This document shows, piece after piece, positions 20,930-27,153 of a stretch of 57,007 bases of DNA. A model generated the notes under the pieces. That model was not told where the DNA came from and searched no databases. It saw only the letters and a program-made list of their open reading frames with translations. The stretch is from Candidatus Nitrotoga sp. CP45. Its GTDB lineage: Bacteria > Pseudomonadota > Gammaproteobacteria > Burkholderiales > Gallionellaceae. A program made the translations under genes and the position numbers. The DNA lies in assembly GCA_945874105.1 (NCBI GenBank), contig CAMCFJ010000017.1:1-57007 (forward strand), written 5' to 3'. The stretch's first letter is position 1; the number at the start of each line of letters is the position of its first letter.

Positions 20930-22312
20930 ATGGATCTACTAATTGATAGCCTTGTTTCACTGTCCATTGGATTATTAGTCGGTGCAGGCGTTGTTTGGCT
21001 GATTCTGCGTGTCCGTATTTCTGCTGCCGAATTGCGGGCAAAAAGCGAACGCGATCAGCTTGATGTAGCGAGAGAGGACCGTGCGCAGTTGTCCGAACGT
21101 GCGGATCGTGTTCCTACACTTGTGGCTGATCTTGTAAAGGCAAATGATGAGATCAAGAATTTAATTGCGCAGGTATCCAGGCTTACTGCGAATCTGGATG
21201 CTGAGCACAAGCAGTCACAAGAAAAATTGCAATTATTGAATGACGCCCGCGAGCAGCTTTCGAATCAGTTCAAGTCCCTGGCCGGAGAAATTCTGGAAGA
21301 TAAAAGCAAGCGTTTTACCGATCAGAATAAAACGAACATTGGCGAGTTGCTTGGGCCATTGAAGACTCAAATTCATGAATTCAAAATCAAGATTGAAGAT
21401 ATTCATCTTGAGGATACAAAGCAACAAGCAACGCTAAAGGCCGAGCTAAATCAGTTGAAAGATTTAAACCGGCAGATTACCGAGGAGGCTCATGGTCTGG
21501 CAACAGCACTTAAGGGCCAATCCAAGATGCAGGGGAATTGGGGGGAAATGGTATTGGAAAATATCCTGGATCGTTCAGGATTGAGATCCGGTAAAGAGTA
21601 TCGTCGCGAAGTCAGCTTTAACACCGAGACGGGCAGAAGCCGCCCAGATGTAATTATTTATCTTCCGCAAGAGAAACATCTAGTCATCGATTCCAAGGTA
21701 TCCCTCAATGCCTATACCCGGTATGTTAATGCAGAAGGTGAAATTGATCGGCAAGTGGCGCTGAAAGAGCACGTTGCAGCAATATCCAGCCGAATTAAGG
21801 AGCTGTCAGATCGCAATTATTTCGAGCTGCCCGGCCTGAACTCCCCTGAGATGGTCTTCATGTTCATTCCCATTGAATCCGCTTTTGTGGAAGCGCTACG
21901 TGCAGATGAAACGTTATTTCAAAAAGCTATTGAACAGAATGTGCTGGTTGCGACGCCGACTACTTTGCTTACCAGCCTCAATATCGTGCGCCAACTCTGG
22001 AGATTTGAAGTGCAAAACGCTCATACCGTGGAACTCGCGAAACGTGCAGTCATGGTACACAAAAAGCTTTGCACCTTCATATCCTCAATGGAAGGAGTCG
22101 GCAATCAGCTCGATAAGGTCAAGGAGTCATATAAAATAGCAATGGATCAATTTACTCATGGAAGAGGTAATCTGATTCAGCAAGCCAACGATTTCAAAAG
22201 ACTTGGCGTTGCAGTGCAAGCGACATTCTCTGAGGATATGCTGGCCAAGGCAGAACTCGAATTAGAGCACCTGCCTGAATTACCCGCACACGAAAATGGT
22301 CCATTGGAATAA
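20930..22312 (+). CDS. rmuC: RmuC-family DNA recombination protein
   Basis: A 460-residue protein with an N-terminal membrane segment (about 7-27), a long coiled coil (about 35-195) and the RmuC domain from about 200 (MQGNWGEMVLENILDRSGL). Within that domain RPDVI (Asp240) and VIDSKVS (Asp254, Lys256) form a PD-(D/E)XK-like nuclease core, a feature of the family. E. coli RmuC limits DNA inversions at short repeats; the mechanism is not settled. The stop is two bases before hsdM, so here it is the first gene of a modification/defence operon, which is unusual. AAGGAAA precedes the ATG. A housekeeping RmuC merely lying upstream is the alternative. Confidence 0.92.
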   Translation: MDLLIDSLVSLSIGLLVGAGVVWLILRVRISAAELRAKSERDQLDVAREDRAQLSERADRVPTLVADLVKANDEIKNLIAQVSRLTANLDAEHKQSQEKLQLLNDAREQLSNQFKSLAGEILEDKSKRFTDQNKTNIGELLGPLKTQIHEFKIKIEDIHLEDTKQQATLKAELNQLKDLNRQITEEAHGLATALKGQSKMQGNWGEMVLENILDRSGLRSGKEYRREVSFNTETGRSRPDVIIYLPQEKHLVIDSKVSLNAYTRYVNAEGEIDRQVALKEHVAAISSRIKELSDRNYFELPGLNSPEMVFMFIPIESAFVEALRADETLFQKAIEQNVLVATPTTLLTSLNIVRQLWRFEVQNAHTVELAKRAVMVHKKLCTFISSMEGVGNQLDKVKESYKIAMDQFTHGRGNLIQQANDFKRLGVAVQATFSEDMLAKAELELEHLPELPAHENGPLE

Positions 22313-22314
22313 GC

Positions 22315-23838
22315 ATGATTGATAACCAAGTCAAAAGTGACATAGACCGACTCTGGCTGGATTTTGCTACGGGAGGAATATCCAACTCGCTCATAATCAT
22401 CGAACAGATTTCCTTTCTGATGTTTGCCCGCCTGCTGGATATAGAAGAATCACAACATGAGAGAAATGCTTCACGTACTGGCGAATCCCCATATCATATT
22501 TTTCGGGTCGATCAGCAAACACTGCGCTGGAAAAACTGGAGCCGGATGAGTGATGGTGAGGCCATGCTCAAGTTCGTGCGCGACGAGGTTTTTCCCCATT
22601 TACGCATTCTCGGCAGCAAAAAATTCACATTTGGCGAATACATGAAAAACGTTTCGCTCCAAATCTCAAAGGCCAGCCTGCTGGTCTCGGTGGTGGAGCA
22701 GATCGAAAAGTTGCCGCTGGGCAATAGTGACACCCAGGGTGATTTATATGAGTATTTGCTGAGCAAGCTCACCACGGCAGGAATACATGGCCAGTTTCGC
22801 ACGCCGCACCACATTATCAAGCTTATGGTGGAGCTTATAGACCCCAAGCCGTTTGAAACAATTGGTGACCCAGCTTGCGGCACGGCTGGTTTTCTGGTGG
22901 CAGTAATGGAATACCTGCGCAAGACTTTCCCTGCAACGGAGTTCGCCGAAACGCTCGAAGGTGGCAGCAAAAGCTGCTCTGGTGACCAGCTCGAACTTAA
23001 TCAGGGAAATATTCAGCACAGCATGTTCTACGGTTTTGATTTCGATGCCACCATGCTGCGTTTGGCTGCCATGAATTTGATGCTGCATGGGGTGAAAAAT
23101 CCGGATCTTCACTACATGGATACGCTTTCAAATGCATTTCCGGAAAAATTCCCGGCCATTGCTGACGGCGACAATGGCGGGCTGGATATCATCCTCTCCA
23201 ACCCGCCGTTTAAGGGCTCACTGGCAGAAGATGTGGATCCTTCTTTACTCAAAATTGCCCAAACCAGAAAGTCCGAGTTGCTTTTTATCGTCCTTATTCT
23301 GCGCATGCTCAAAAGTGGTGGCCGTTCCGCTACCATCGTCCCCGATGGGGTTCTGTTTGGCTCAAGTAAAGCCCATTTGGCCGTACGTGAGTATTTGCTT
23401 GATCATAATCAGTTGGAAGCGTTGATTTCGCTGCCATCCGGCGCATTTAGATCTTTTGCAGGACTTTCTACCGCCATTTTGTTGTTTACCAAAGGTGGAC
23501 GAACTCAGGATGTATTTTTTTACGACGTACAAGCCGACGGACTTTCAGAGCAAGAAAAGTGTCAAGAAATTGCCGACAATGATCTGTCCGACGTGTTGAT
23601 CCAATATCGTCGCTGGCGCAATGGCGAGAGTGATTTTTCTGATCGAACTGCAAATGCTTTCAAGGTATCCGCCGCAGACATTCGAGCCCATAATTTTGAG
23701 CTTTCAATAAACCGCTACAGGCAAACCAGGCATCAGGAAATGACGTGCGAGGAACCCAAGGTGATTCTGGCGCACATGCAAATGCTTGAGGCCGAGATTC
23801 AACGAGATATGGCTGAGTTGGAGGCATTGCTTCGATGA
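22315..23838 (+). CDS. hsdM: Type I restriction-modification system methylase subunit
   Basis: N6-adenine DNA methyltransferase subunit of 507 residues. It has an N-terminal helical HsdM_N region, QFRTPHHIIKLMV before the SAM motif DPACGTAGF (185-193), and the catalytic NPPF (296-299). The downstream VPDGVLFGSSKAHLAVREYL stretch is typical of HsdM. In type I systems two HsdM bind one HsdS to methylate a bipartite site. The start is two bases after rmuC and the stop overlaps hsdS by four (ATGA). No HsdR gene lies upstream, downstream or anywhere in the window. Confidence 0.95.
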   Translation: MIDNQVKSDIDRLWLDFATGGISNSLIIIEQISFLMFARLLDIEESQHERNASRTGESPYHIFRVDQQTLRWKNWSRMSDGEAMLKFVRDEVFPHLRILGSKKFTFGEYMKNVSLQISKASLLVSVVEQIEKLPLGNSDTQGDLYEYLLSKLTTAGIHGQFRTPHHIIKLMVELIDPKPFETIGDPACGTAGFLVAVMEYLRKTFPATEFAETLEGGSKSCSGDQLELNQGNIQHSMFYGFDFDATMLRLAAMNLMLHGVKNPDLHYMDTLSNAFPEKFPAIADGDNGGLDIILSNPPFKGSLAEDVDPSLLKIAQTRKSELLFIVLILRMLKSGGRSATIVPDGVLFGSSKAHLAVREYLLDHNQLEALISLPSGAFRSFAGLSTAILLFTKGGRTQDVFFYDVQADGLSEQEKCQEIADNDLSDVLIQYRRWRNGESDFSDRTANAFKVSAADIRAHNFELSINRYRQTRHQEMTCEEPKVILAHMQMLEAEIQRDMAELEALLR

Positions 23839-24572
23839 AGTTCGTCAGGCTGGGAGATGTGGCACGAATCGTTGGTGGAGGGTCGCTAGTCCGTTCAAAC
23901 TCTGCATGCTGGAATGGGTCGATTCCTTGGGTTACTGTGATGGATATTCGCGGCGCACGCATTAATGATCCGTTGGCAAGGATTACAGAATTTGGCCTGA
24001 AAGAGTCAGCATCCAATTTATTGCCGGTCGGAAGCATACTAGTGCCAGCGAGCATGACTTTCGAAAATGTTGTCATCAACGATGTGCCGGTTGCCATCAA
24101 TAAAGATTTAACGGCAATTATTGTAGAATCCCCTGCTATTGACAGGAATTACATTCAACTATTCTTGCTATCAAAGACAAACAATCTTGAGTTGTACGGC
24201 AAAGTGGGGATGAAAAATGGGGGGGATGCAACTGAAGTTCTGGCTGATATTGATATCCCGCTTCAGCCCCTGGAAGAGCAGCGGCGTATCGCCTTGATCC
24301 TCGACAAATCTGATGCTATCCGTAAAAAACGTCGTGCCACACTCAACCTGGCAGACAGCTTTTTGCATTCGATATTTTTGGATAAGTTTGGCGAACCGGT
24401 GATGAATCCGAAAGAATTGCCAGTTCCTCCAATTGCTGTTCAAAAACGTTATACACAAATTCATAATAAGATGATTTCCATTAAGGAAAAGCTTGCAAAT
24501 GAGCTGGTTCAATCAAATATTCTTTTCGACAGTCTTGCCGCATCTGTCTTTACATCGTCTGAGGCAGCCTGA
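23835..24572 (+). CDS. hsdS: Type I specificity subunit, short (one target-recognition domain)
   Basis: DNA-recognition subunit of 245 residues; full HsdS proteins are about 400-450. Residues 1-143 form one target-recognition domain (VRLGDVARIVGGG, IPWVTVMDIRG, MKNGGDATEVL). Residues 144-193 form the first conserved helical spacer (PLEEQRRIALILDKSDAIRK, FLDKFGEPVMNPK). Immediately after NPK the sequence continues with LPVPPIAVQKRY (195-206) and a second helix, which in full-length HsdS follows the second recognition domain. The second domain therefore looks cleanly missing at about 24413. Half-size HsdS proteins can pair to restore a symmetric site, so it may still work. Confidence 0.85.
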   Translation: MKFVRLGDVARIVGGGSLVRSNSACWNGSIPWVTVMDIRGARINDPLARITEFGLKESASNLLPVGSILVPASMTFENVVINDVPVAINKDLTAIIVESPAIDRNYIQLFLLSKTNNLELYGKVGMKNGGDATEVLADIDIPLQPLEEQRRIALILDKSDAIRKKRRATLNLADSFLHSIFLDKFGEPVMNPKELPVPPIAVQKRYTQIHNKMISIKEKLANELVQSNILFDSLAASVFTSSEAA

Positions 24573-24592
24573 GCAATGAGGATAAATAAAAT

Positions 24593-26293
24593 ATGAGTGC
24601 ACCGACCGCTAGTAGTCAGACGGGTCTGACCAAAATTTTTATTGAGAATTTTAAAGGGATCGGTTCCGAAATTCGGATTGACCTAAAACCGATTACCCTG
24701 CTTTTCGGTGCAAACAGCGTAGGAAAAAGCACTATCATGCAAGCGCTGCAGTATGTGCGTGAAGTACTGGAGCGCAACAACGCTAACCCAGACCGCACTA
24801 TGCAGGGTGGAAATTTTGTTGATCTGGGAGGATTTCGCAATCTTGTTCATCTGCGTGATACAACCCGTCATATTGCCATTCAGATTGAGTTGTCTTTAGG
24901 TGGCAAAGGGCTGCCCGATTTGGTGCCGGAAGCCTTTGACGATTGGCAAACAGATGATTCCAAGGTATGGGCTTTTTACAACCTGTTGCATGAAACACGG
25001 AATCGCGTTGAATCGGTAAGCGTGAAGTTGGTGATTGCCTGGAGTCATCTTCGCGATAAAGCGGTGGTGATCGGCTATCAAGTCGGTGCTAATGGCGAAT
25101 GGCTGGCCGAAATTAATGCTACGGATGATGGTCGGGACGTCAGCATCAGCATTAACGAGATCAATCCCATATTTATGCGCCAGTTCACGCAGGAAGATCT
25201 GGACAGTAATCTAGAATATTATTTGCGATCGAATGCGAGTTCGGTCGCGTCCGGCGACTCCGTAGCCCCCAACATTGAAACTCACTATACGATATGGCCG
25301 CACATTATCGAGACGGTAACGGATGCGGGCATGGAAAAGACCGGCGAGGGCTTGCGCGAGTGGCTTTCAGGTTTTGATAGCGCGTTACCTCGATTGGGCG
25401 AACTGCTGCATATTCCGGCCCCAGATGTAATCGGGGCGGAGAATGTTTATATCGCCCGAGAGTTCACCGCCTTTATTTCATCTCTGATTGTTGGCCCCGG
25501 TTTGCTGGTGCGCGATGAATTGCGCAAAATGCGCTATGTCGGACCGATTCGGCATGTGCCCGCACGCGATTTTGATGCCAGCTTGACTAAGGACGAGGCA
25601 GGCTGGGCAGACGGTTTGGCTGGATGGGAAGCTTTGCTGACTGGACAGCAAAGCCTGATCGATGATGTCAGTCGCTGGATGGCTGACGAAGATAAACTCA
25701 ATACTGGTTATGCAATTGAACGCCGCTGGGTGCGTGAAGTGCGCTCGGAGTGGCTGGATTTGATTGGCTCTGAAGAATTGAACCCCCAGCGTAAGTGGAT
25801 GCTGAATAAAGCAATTGAAGCCTTGCTGACCAAGCCCCGCATTGGTTTGATCGATACTAAATCCGGTCTGGAAATGCAGTCACGAGATGTCGGAATCGGC
25901 ATCTCGCAAGTACTGCCAGTGGTGGTGGCTGCGCTGGAGTCTTCTGCAAGCCTGGTGACTATCGAGCAGCCAGAGCTTCATATTCACCCTTCGGTGCAGG
26001 TGGGTCTGGGTGACCTGCTAATTTATAGTGTACTTCGCCATGAAATGAGTTTTTTGATCGAAACGCACAGCGAGCATCTGATTTTGCGCTTGCTACGCAG
26101 GATTCGCGAAACATCGGAAGGTAATTTACCGTCTGGCTTTCCATCTGTTTCTCCAGAAATGATCGGGGTTTATTATGTGGGTCGCGGAGAAAATGGGGTT
26201 CAGATTAAATCCTTGCCCGTAGATGAAGCAGGTGAATTTACGGAAAGCTGGCCTAAAGGATTCTTTGATGAACGAGCCGGAGAGCTATTCTGA
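24593..26293 (+). CDS. SMC/OLD-like AAA ATPase with DUF3696 tail
   Basis: A 566-residue predicted ATPase. Walker A is GANSVGKST (39-47). The ABC-like signature region is SRDVGIGISQVLPVVVAAL, Walker B is LVTIEQPELHIHP, and the H-loop is FLIETHSEHLILRLLRRI. The C-terminal FTESWPKGFFDERAGELF is the hallmark of DUF3696. The layout matches AAA_21-type ATPases found in many phage-defence operons (OLD/Gabija/Septu relatives), but no TOPRIM nuclease domain is visible, so any nuclease would be a partner. GAGG lies upstream of the ATG. It starts 20 bases after hsdS and overlaps the next gene by one base, which points to a two-protein module. Function is inferred. Confidence 0.85.
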   Translation: MSAPTASSQTGLTKIFIENFKGIGSEIRIDLKPITLLFGANSVGKSTIMQALQYVREVLERNNANPDRTMQGGNFVDLGGFRNLVHLRDTTRHIAIQIELSLGGKGLPDLVPEAFDDWQTDDSKVWAFYNLLHETRNRVESVSVKLVIAWSHLRDKAVVIGYQVGANGEWLAEINATDDGRDVSISINEINPIFMRQFTQEDLDSNLEYYLRSNASSVASGDSVAPNIETHYTIWPHIIETVTDAGMEKTGEGLREWLSGFDSALPRLGELLHIPAPDVIGAENVYIAREFTAFISSLIVGPGLLVRDELRKMRYVGPIRHVPARDFDASLTKDEAGWADGLAGWEALLTGQQSLIDDVSRWMADEDKLNTGYAIERRWVREVRSEWLDLIGSEELNPQRKWMLNKAIEALLTKPRIGLIDTKSGLEMQSRDVGIGISQVLPVVVAALESSASLVTIEQPELHIHPSVQVGLGDLLIYSVLRHEMSFLIETHSEHLILRLLRRIRETSEGNLPSGFPSVSPEMIGVYYVGRGENGVQIKSLPVDEAGEFTESWPKGFFDERAGELF

Positions 26294-27153
26294 TGATCAA
26301 GGAATTTGCATTGGATCCGGATGCCATCACTTCGTCTTATCGCGAGTTCTGCTACTTCACAGAGAAGTTCGGCGTGAGCCAGGGGCGGGTTATTTCCGCA
26401 TTTCCAAAGAAGTGGAGAATGCTGGTTTGTGACTCGGCCTTGCGCGAGCATAAGGGTAAAGTCGAGTTTTCCAGAATTGTGGAACGCCTGAATAAATTTG
26501 GAAATGATACTGTTTTTGATACGGGTCGACCGAGTGGCGAAGGTTCTCAGACGTGGATTGATCGGGCATTAGTAGAGCATGCACGCAAACCCTTTGCGGC
26601 GATTATCTCAGCTACTGCTGTAGATCACCCGGATGTGCTGCTAAAAGATGAAATTGATGAAGAAAACCCGCGCTTCAAAGCCGCTCGACAGTGCGCTGTT
26701 CCTCGGACAGCTCAAGCCCTGATTGGCTGTGCTGAATTTTTGATTCGGCACGCTAAAATAATTAAACTGGTTGATCCGCATTTTGACCCTACCAAGCCTC
26801 GCTACCAGCGACCGCTAGAGCAAATATGTACATTATTGCCCGGCAGCAAAGCCACTGTGGAAATACATCGCAGCGATGAGATCGCAAACGACGAACTGAT
26901 TCGACGTTTTCAGCAGAGCGTTTCCATATTGCCCTCAGGAGTGAAGATGCAATTGCATATTTATGAGAAAGCGCAAATGCACAACCGTTTTATCATTACC
27001 GAAAGTGGCGGACTGATTTATGGGGTGGGCCTTAGTGACAATGAGGACGGTGGTGGTGCGCCGGATGAAGAGGTCACCTTGATGGAAACAGCAGTCAAAA
27101 ATACTCGCTGGAATGACTACAGCAAAGTTTCGCCTGTGGCCATATGGCCATGA
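26293..27153 (+). CDS. Unknown protein with PLD-like HxR motif, ATPase partner
   Basis: I do not recognise this 286-residue protein as a named family. Its C-terminal half (about 150-285) resembles a phospholipase D-like fold: IKLVDPHFDPTKPRY (157-171) as an early strand and acidic loop, then MHNRFIITESGGLIYGVGLS (229-248). The latter is an HxR/HxK-type catalytic strand (His230, Arg232) followed by a 'report' strand. The N-terminal half has no visible motif and no signal peptide. The start overlaps the ATPase stop (TGATG), so the two are translationally coupled. A nuclease or effector role is likely but unproven; only one HxR motif is seen, so activity would need dimerisation. Confidence 0.6.
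   Translation: MIKEFALDPDAITSSYREFCYFTEKFGVSQGRVISAFPKKWRMLVCDSALREHKGKVEFSRIVERLNKFGNDTVFDTGRPSGEGSQTWIDRALVEHARKPFAAIISATAVDHPDVLLKDEIDEENPRFKAARQCAVPRTAQALIGCAEFLIRHAKIIKLVDPHFDPTKPRYQRPLEQICTLLPGSKATVEIHRSDEIANDELIRRFQQSVSILPSGVKMQLHIYEKAQMHNRFIITESGGLIYGVGLSDNEDGGGAPDEEVTLMETAVKNTRWNDYSKVSPVAIWP

Follow-up and report, generated by a model that had tools for sequence, protein, structure and literature searches.

What keeps a type I methyltransferase operon in a genome when its restriction motor is absent? The question is raised by the window, a stretch of 57,007 nucleotides that is the entire contig C17 of the 2.5 Mb genome of Candidatus Nitrotoga sp. CP45. Five genes on its forward strand form one block: rmuC, hsdM, hsdS, a gene for an ABC/OLD-type ATPase and a gene for a protein with the phospholipase D (PLD) fold. 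Re-reading of the window confirmed the five co-directional frames and the gaps of +2, −4, +20 and −1 nucleotides given in an earlier note on this DNA. The absence of a motor also stands: neither the window nor 13 related loci gave an HsdR profile match at E ≤ 1, so that an adjoining hsdR, which that note had considered, was not found there. The favoured reading, with about an even chance of being right, is that the block is an hsdR-hsdM-hsdS-ATPase-PLD operon that lost hsdR, with the ATPase-PLD pair as its selected core and a defensive use for that pair.

Conservation, gene loss and selection

The five-gene set is real and conserved within one genus. The PLD gene occurs in 14 of 150 genomes of the family, every one of them in Candidatus Nitrotoga (19 genus genomes examined), and is carried by 13 of the 15 genus genomes with completeness of 90% or more and contamination of 5% or less. 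At all 14 loci compared, window included, the block adjoins aroA-cmk and rpsA. All five genes are kept together at 13 of these loci, an order that rules out chance juxtaposition.

The ratio of nonsynonymous to synonymous substitution rates (dN/dS) was calculated by the Nei-Gojobori method for 13 genomes (12 for hsdM and hsdS), each against the window, with frames taken stop to stop; the pairs are non-independent. Median values rise from 0.027 for rpsA through 0.062 for the ATPase, 0.076 for the PLD gene and 0.135 for aroA-cmk to 0.186 for hsdM, 0.208 for rmuC and 0.324 for hsdS, with median dS of 0.34–0.49. The ATPase-PLD pair is far more strongly selected than hsdM. Decay can be seen directly at locus L030, which shares its contig with L091 (Nitrotoga sp. 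BS): hsdM has disappeared, remnants of hsdS are all that lies between intact rmuC and ATPase genes, and the PLD gene is intact. The best HsdM match in that genome is distant (30%). This loss, together with the low dN/dS of the ATPase and PLD genes, points to the pair as the selected core and indicates that methylation is not needed for its retention.

A type I operon without its motor

Named genomes were scanned with the ATPase alignment, and the best 80 of 539 relatives, ranked by ATPase similarity, were kept; the shares of relatives given in this text refer to that set. Outside Nitrotoga lie 76 of the 80 loci, and 75 were scored, L141 being left out because its ATPase frame is broken. Among the 75, hsdR was found at 50, hsdM at 53, hsdS at 53, all three at 49, the PLD gene at 60 and rmuC at 4. 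For 61 loci the sequence upstream of the ATPase extends over 8.5 kb or more, and the counts there are 47 for hsdR, 48 for hsdM, 47 for hsdS, 52 for the PLD gene and 4 for rmuC, and the type I set is complete at 46. This prevalence of the complete set suggests that hsdR was lost in Nitrotoga and not replaced by RmuC or by the pair. The earlier note had placed RmuC or the ATPase-PLD proteins in the position of HsdR; elsewhere, however, they stand beside HsdR, and rmuC even lies between hsdR and hsdM at L092, L119 and L135.

The combination of hsdM with the ATPase-PLD pair and no hsdR is the exception, shown by Nitrotoga. Among the 48 hsdM loci, L150 is the sole one without hsdR above the cut-off, and it has a weak HsdR match. 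The HsdR proteins of relatives carry HSDR_N, ResIII and EcoEI_R_C. No hsd gene was found at 13 of the 61 loci, and the PLD gene is present at 10 of these 13.

More distant records give the same picture. The PLD protein is encoded in five plasmid records, at 25–30% identity: the order is hsdR, hsdM, hsdS, ATPase, PLD on Methylocella and Vibrio plasmids, an Azotobacter plasmid has hsdR and hsdM in pieces followed by hsdS, ATPase and PLD, and a Deinococcus plasmid has ATPase and PLD with no hsd gene in the part that was read. A class-wide profile search of 369 genomes found the PLD protein in three, namely the window's own and two others in which type I genes adjoin it. The suspicion that the five families might never travel together elsewhere was not borne out; hsdM-hsdS-ATPase-PLD recurs in many phyla.

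Evolutionary distances were compared between gene families. Alignment A5 took rows from 55 of the 80 scan loci and A7 from 47, each plus the window, according to score and length cut-offs; L032 was left out of alignments A1 and A2. ATPase and HsdM distances agree (Spearman 0.69, with 0 of 200 shuffles as high), as do those of HsdM and HsdR (0.80). The nearest locus outside the genus in both HsdM and ATPase is L092, which retains hsdR.

The remaining type I genes are largely intact. HsdM (22315–23838, forward strand, 507 residues) has Pfam N6_Mtase with HsdM_N, motif I GDPACGTAGFL and motif IV NPPF. The NPP(F/Y/W) form of motif IV is kept as NPPF in 12 of 13 Nitrotoga copies, window included, with NPPL in L035, and the motif I pattern is matched in 11 of 13. 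HsdS (23835–24572, forward strand) is half-size, with 245 residues and a single Methylase_S domain (Pfam) in place of the two target recognition domains of a type I HsdS; among the 12 relatives with a retained hsdS, L035 and L036 have the full-size form and the other 10 the half-size form. Excerpts of PMC6158711 describe an engineered half-HsdS that forms, with HsdM, an active methyltransferase with a palindromic target. Orphan methylation is therefore likely in most of these Nitrotoga species.

The host genome (G000) also holds six further HsdR-like motors, on contigs C4, C11, C33, C36 and C45, each near another N6_Mtase gene. Supply of HsdR in trans from another host system is judged unlikely, given these adjoining genes and the fact that only 3 of the 6 loci match the HsdR of L092, at 26–28%.

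The ATPase and its PLD-fold partner

The ATPase (24593–26293, forward strand, 566 residues) belongs to AAA_15/AAA_21 and has a DUF3696 end. It is an ABC-type ATPase like those of OLD/PARIS/Septu-like pairs, with Walker A, signature and Walker B patterns in all 14 Nitrotoga copies (IETLSEH in L028 and FGSNSVGKS in L030). Its fold is like SMC/Rad50 and Gabija: the top Foldseek match is GajA, and VIA gave 17.6 for GajA, 17.3 for Eco8, 16.9 for OLD, 16.8 for AriA and 21–17 for SMC/Rad50.

The partner gene (26293–27153, forward strand) encodes 286 residues. By sequence, the protein falls in no Pfam, PADLOC, NCBIfam or PDB family, with chance-level matches at best. Its fold is nonetheless that of PLD enzymes, matching NucT (11.0), SauUSI (10.6), Nuc (9.9) and R.NgoAVII (9.1). 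The usual motif of the Phospholipase D superfamily is HxKx4D. Here a single motif has Arg for Lys, and Glu for Asp in Nitrotoga (HxRx4E, in 14 of 14 copies); several relatives have HxRx4D. H230 and R232 are invariant across 56 sequences, and D161 is conserved. The protein is a putative nuclease.

The CARF-sigma54 regulator

A regulator with CARF, AAA and HTH domains (CARF-sigma54) was found in 34 of the 76 relatives (L092–L167), mostly against hsdR. At L098, L101, L108, L122 and L126 it lies at most 140 nucleotides from an ATPase of the pair, and in some cases directly before a stand-alone ATPase-PLD pair. It is on the other strand in L115 and L163, and weak in L130 and L151. The regulator of L082 (L082:15031–16548) matches PADLOC RtcR_PspF2 with 657.6 bits. 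The same search found none in the window or the Nitrotoga loci. RtcR-like regulators of the CARF-NtrC family have already been linked to restriction-modification systems (excerpts of PMC4012209); the 34 relatives resemble these systems in this respect, whereas the Nitrotoga loci do not.

RmuC

RmuC (20930–22312, forward strand, 460 residues) has an N-terminal hydrophobic stretch (by eye), a coiled coil and an RmuC domain (Pfam), and is the only RmuC in its genome. All three RmuC patterns are matched in 11 of 14 Nitrotoga copies; L029, L033 and L034 each miss one. The length of 460 residues is shared by L032, and the other 12 loci span 545 columns, with about 85 more residues in the coiled coil.

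The presence of RmuC in further operons of this kind was upheld by four of the 75 scored relatives, all Pfam-confirmed. The order is hsdR, rmuC, hsdM at L119 and L135; hsdR, rmuC, uracil-DNA glycosylase (UDG), hsdM at L092; and rmuC, hsdR, hsdM at L146. In a tree of 67 rows, built by a quick method with long branches flagged (L215 was left out for want of a profile match), these four RmuCs fall in three places, none beside Nitrotoga RmuC. The latter groups with two RmuCs of the class, L175 and L191, as its sisters, and the surroundings of L175 have no hsd genes. A common origin of the Nitrotoga and L092 RmuCs is unsupported by this tree. Within the survey, which covered operons with the ATPase-PLD pair, recruitment of RmuC seems to be recurrent, by separate events.

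Controls were drawn from other RmuC loci. Among 20 family and class loci, some of them short stretches, 19 had an RmuC profile match and none of these 19 an hsd match. Five loci of blockless genus genomes gave an RmuC match in four, and one of these four, L083, has a weak HsdS match about 6 kb away; the four RmuCs of such genomes in the tree are the family's other type. Nine plasmid RmuC neighbourhoods (of 55 records) had no annotated hsd gene, a weak control because several of them are chromosome-like stretches.

The UDG superfamily gene between rmuC and hsdM (L092:6302–6979) occurs at 1 of 88 loci, L092 itself, and is not a usual RmuC neighbour. An AAA_13 protein and an OLD-like TOPRIM ATPase share operons with RmuC and the pair (L119:6883–9138; L135:6473–8302).

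Proposed function and alternatives

On the favoured reading, the block derives from a widespread type I restriction-modification operon through loss of hsdR; it carries no CARF-sigma54 regulator and has been fixed in front of aroA in a single Nitrotoga clade. The ATPase, of SMC/Rad50/OLD type, would dimerise on ATP and sense a state linked to infection, such as DNA ends, invading DNA or a phage protein. It would then switch on the PLD protein, whose dimer may cut nucleic acid. In this way the pair could resemble PARIS, Septu or Gabija in its mode of action, the effector here being a PLD nuclease. HsdM and the half-size HsdS probably still methylate a palindromic site; they would no longer license restriction and would be dispensable. 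RmuC is probably co-expressed with the block. Retention of the ATPase-PLD add-on, almost unchanged although the motor was lost, suggests that it is useful by itself.

Several observations weigh against this reading. The dN/dS of hsdM (0.19) indicates that the methyltransferase is still selected in most species. The Arg and Glu of the PLD motif make catalysis uncertain. Relatives ranked by ATPase similarity give shares that are not those of the whole family, and a gene counted as present wherever in the locus it lay. ATPase and PLD distances agree only fairly (0.45), and PLD and HsdM distances poorly (0.17, with 6 of 200 shuffles as high); the PLD protein nearest to the window's is in L097, and that of L092 is only 23% identical. 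The pair has therefore been reshuffled, and the effector exchanged in some lineages. For a defence module it is unusual to occupy a single site in 14 of 19 genomes of the genus and to show such low dN/dS; housekeeping would fit this pattern as well. The main rival starts from that point: the pair and RmuC would have been domesticated for DNA maintenance (end processing or recombination control) and defence abandoned. The pair's dN/dS lies below that of aroA-cmk, SMC and Rad50 heads outrank the defence ATPases by VIA, and RmuC is the sole copy in the genome. However, the relatives are scattered across many phyla, some on plasmids, mostly in restriction operons and often with a CARF regulator, and five genus genomes, two of them more than 90% complete, do without the block. 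Domestication is considered rather unlikely.

Two other explanations keep the methyltransferase at the centre, and both are improbable. As proposed in the earlier note, HsdM-HsdS would mark self and RmuC and/or the ATPase-PLD pair, replacing HsdR, would destroy unmarked DNA. The joint retention of five genes at 13 of 14 loci, the intact motif IV and purifying selection on hsdM fit this idea. Against it stand L030, where rmuC, ATPase and PLD persist although hsdM is missing and hsdS is reduced to a remnant, the 13 relatives without any hsd gene, the position of the pair beside HsdR elsewhere, and the fact that hsdS is the least constrained gene. Alternatively, the pair might monitor HsdM-HsdS and fire when a phage anti-restriction protein blocks the enzyme, a guard-type response as in PrrC and PARIS. 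Agreement of ATPase and HsdM distances, a fold like AriA and the complete type I operons around the pair in most relatives examined are consistent with a guard, but the pair has survived the loss of hsdM and hsdS and is also found without hsd genes. For RmuC taken separately, the idea that it is an ordinary housekeeping gene, upstream by chance, falls just short of an even chance. It is the genome's only RmuC, its sisters are class RmuCs (one without hsd neighbours) apart from those of L092, L119, L135 and L146, and its dN/dS (0.21) is unlike the pair's. Yet the gap to hsdM is 2 nucleotides, rmuC adjoins the block at 14 of 14 loci and directly precedes hsdM at 13, RmuC lies inside four other operons of this kind, and blockless genus genomes have another RmuC type.

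Returning to the favoured reading of motor loss with a retained defence pair, a broader version is possible, though doubtful: CARF-sigma54, hsdR, (rmuC), hsdM, hsdS, ATPase and PLD might form an undescribed composite system in which a nucleotide signal co-activates the type I enzyme and the ATPase-PLD effector, and in which RmuC, recruited repeatedly, acts as a third nuclease. With motor and switch shed in Nitrotoga, the effector would remain there as a constitutively acting core pair for immunity. Through natural loss of genes, Nitrotoga has split a recurrent ATPase-PLD pair, for which no name was found in the literature searched, from its usual restriction partner. Whether the pair protects alone, or only with restriction, is now a testable question. 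Several type I operons, separate from one another, contain RmuC, a known recombination protein and Shield effector, and a module of defence type has become near-core in a group of nitrite oxidisers.

Relation to known systems

The block resembles type I restriction-modification systems in its hsdM and hsdS homologues with a 4-nucleotide overlap; unlike them, it has no HsdR, a half-size HsdS, two extra conserved genes downstream and rmuC upstream. PARIS (AriA-AriB), Septu (PtuA-PtuB), Gabija (GajA), OLD and retron Eco8/Ec83 share with it an ABC/OLD-type ATPase, in sequence and fold, beside a nuclease-like gene. In PARIS/Septu-type pairs the known partners are Toprim or HNH proteins. The window differs in its PLD-fold partner and in the DUF3696 end of its ATPase; neither protein has a Toprim or HNH family in Pfam.

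Among PADLOC models, the ATPase matches NsnB (6.2e-44), PDC-M55A (5e-42) and HEC-03B (1.2e-37), whereas the PLD partner has no recognised second-component model: there was none in the window or in 4 of 5 distant relatives, and L135 gave a weak BrxL match (6.5e-5). This comparison of NsnB, PDC-M55 and HEC-03 is one of model matches, not of system definitions. HsdM and the ATPase match MAD2 and MAD3 of MADS, and HsdS matches mad5, but the MAD2 and MAD3 scores, 135.5 and 34.3 bits, lie far under the respective NCBIfam cut-offs of 720 and 420. Shield offers a parallel from defence: its ShdA is a membrane-anchored protein with an RmuC domain. The available text of PMC10270631 contains neither HsdM nor 'type I restriction', and the comparison with ShdA is at the level of the RmuC domain.

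No description of hsdRMS-ATPase-PLD and no paper on DUF3696 with restriction-modification was found in the open-access literature searched, which does not show absence from print. Neither 'RmuC' nor 'phospholipase' appears in the available text of a review of type I enzymes (PMC3874165).

Genomic site and side observations

The constant downstream neighbour, outside the block, is one 651-residue frame fusing AroA and Cmk (window:27239–29194, forward strand), common to many family genomes and split in some. The block upstream of aroA looks like an insertion. The longest frame before aroA was read at 20 family loci outside the genus, some on the wrong side because of strand, and at 5 of the 20 it has a like ending, by eye a prephenate dehydrogenase. 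Prediction gave two promoter sites before rmuC against 2.0 in shuffles, and one terminator at the PLD end against 0.3; no conclusion is built on either. Repeats within the block are limited to weak two-copy and inverted matches.

In the most distant locus of the Nitrotoga group, frames that by eye resemble type III Res and Mod lie as a pair some 1.5 kb before rmuC (L036:12586–15911). SIR2 and HerA/DUF87-like genes stand beside ATPase-PLD in two distant type I loci (L077:12714–16007; L081:8067–11715, the latter by eye). At L125 the ATPase-PLD pair is followed by a second ATPase, and L108 (6321–12534) has two ATPase-PLD pairs in tandem.

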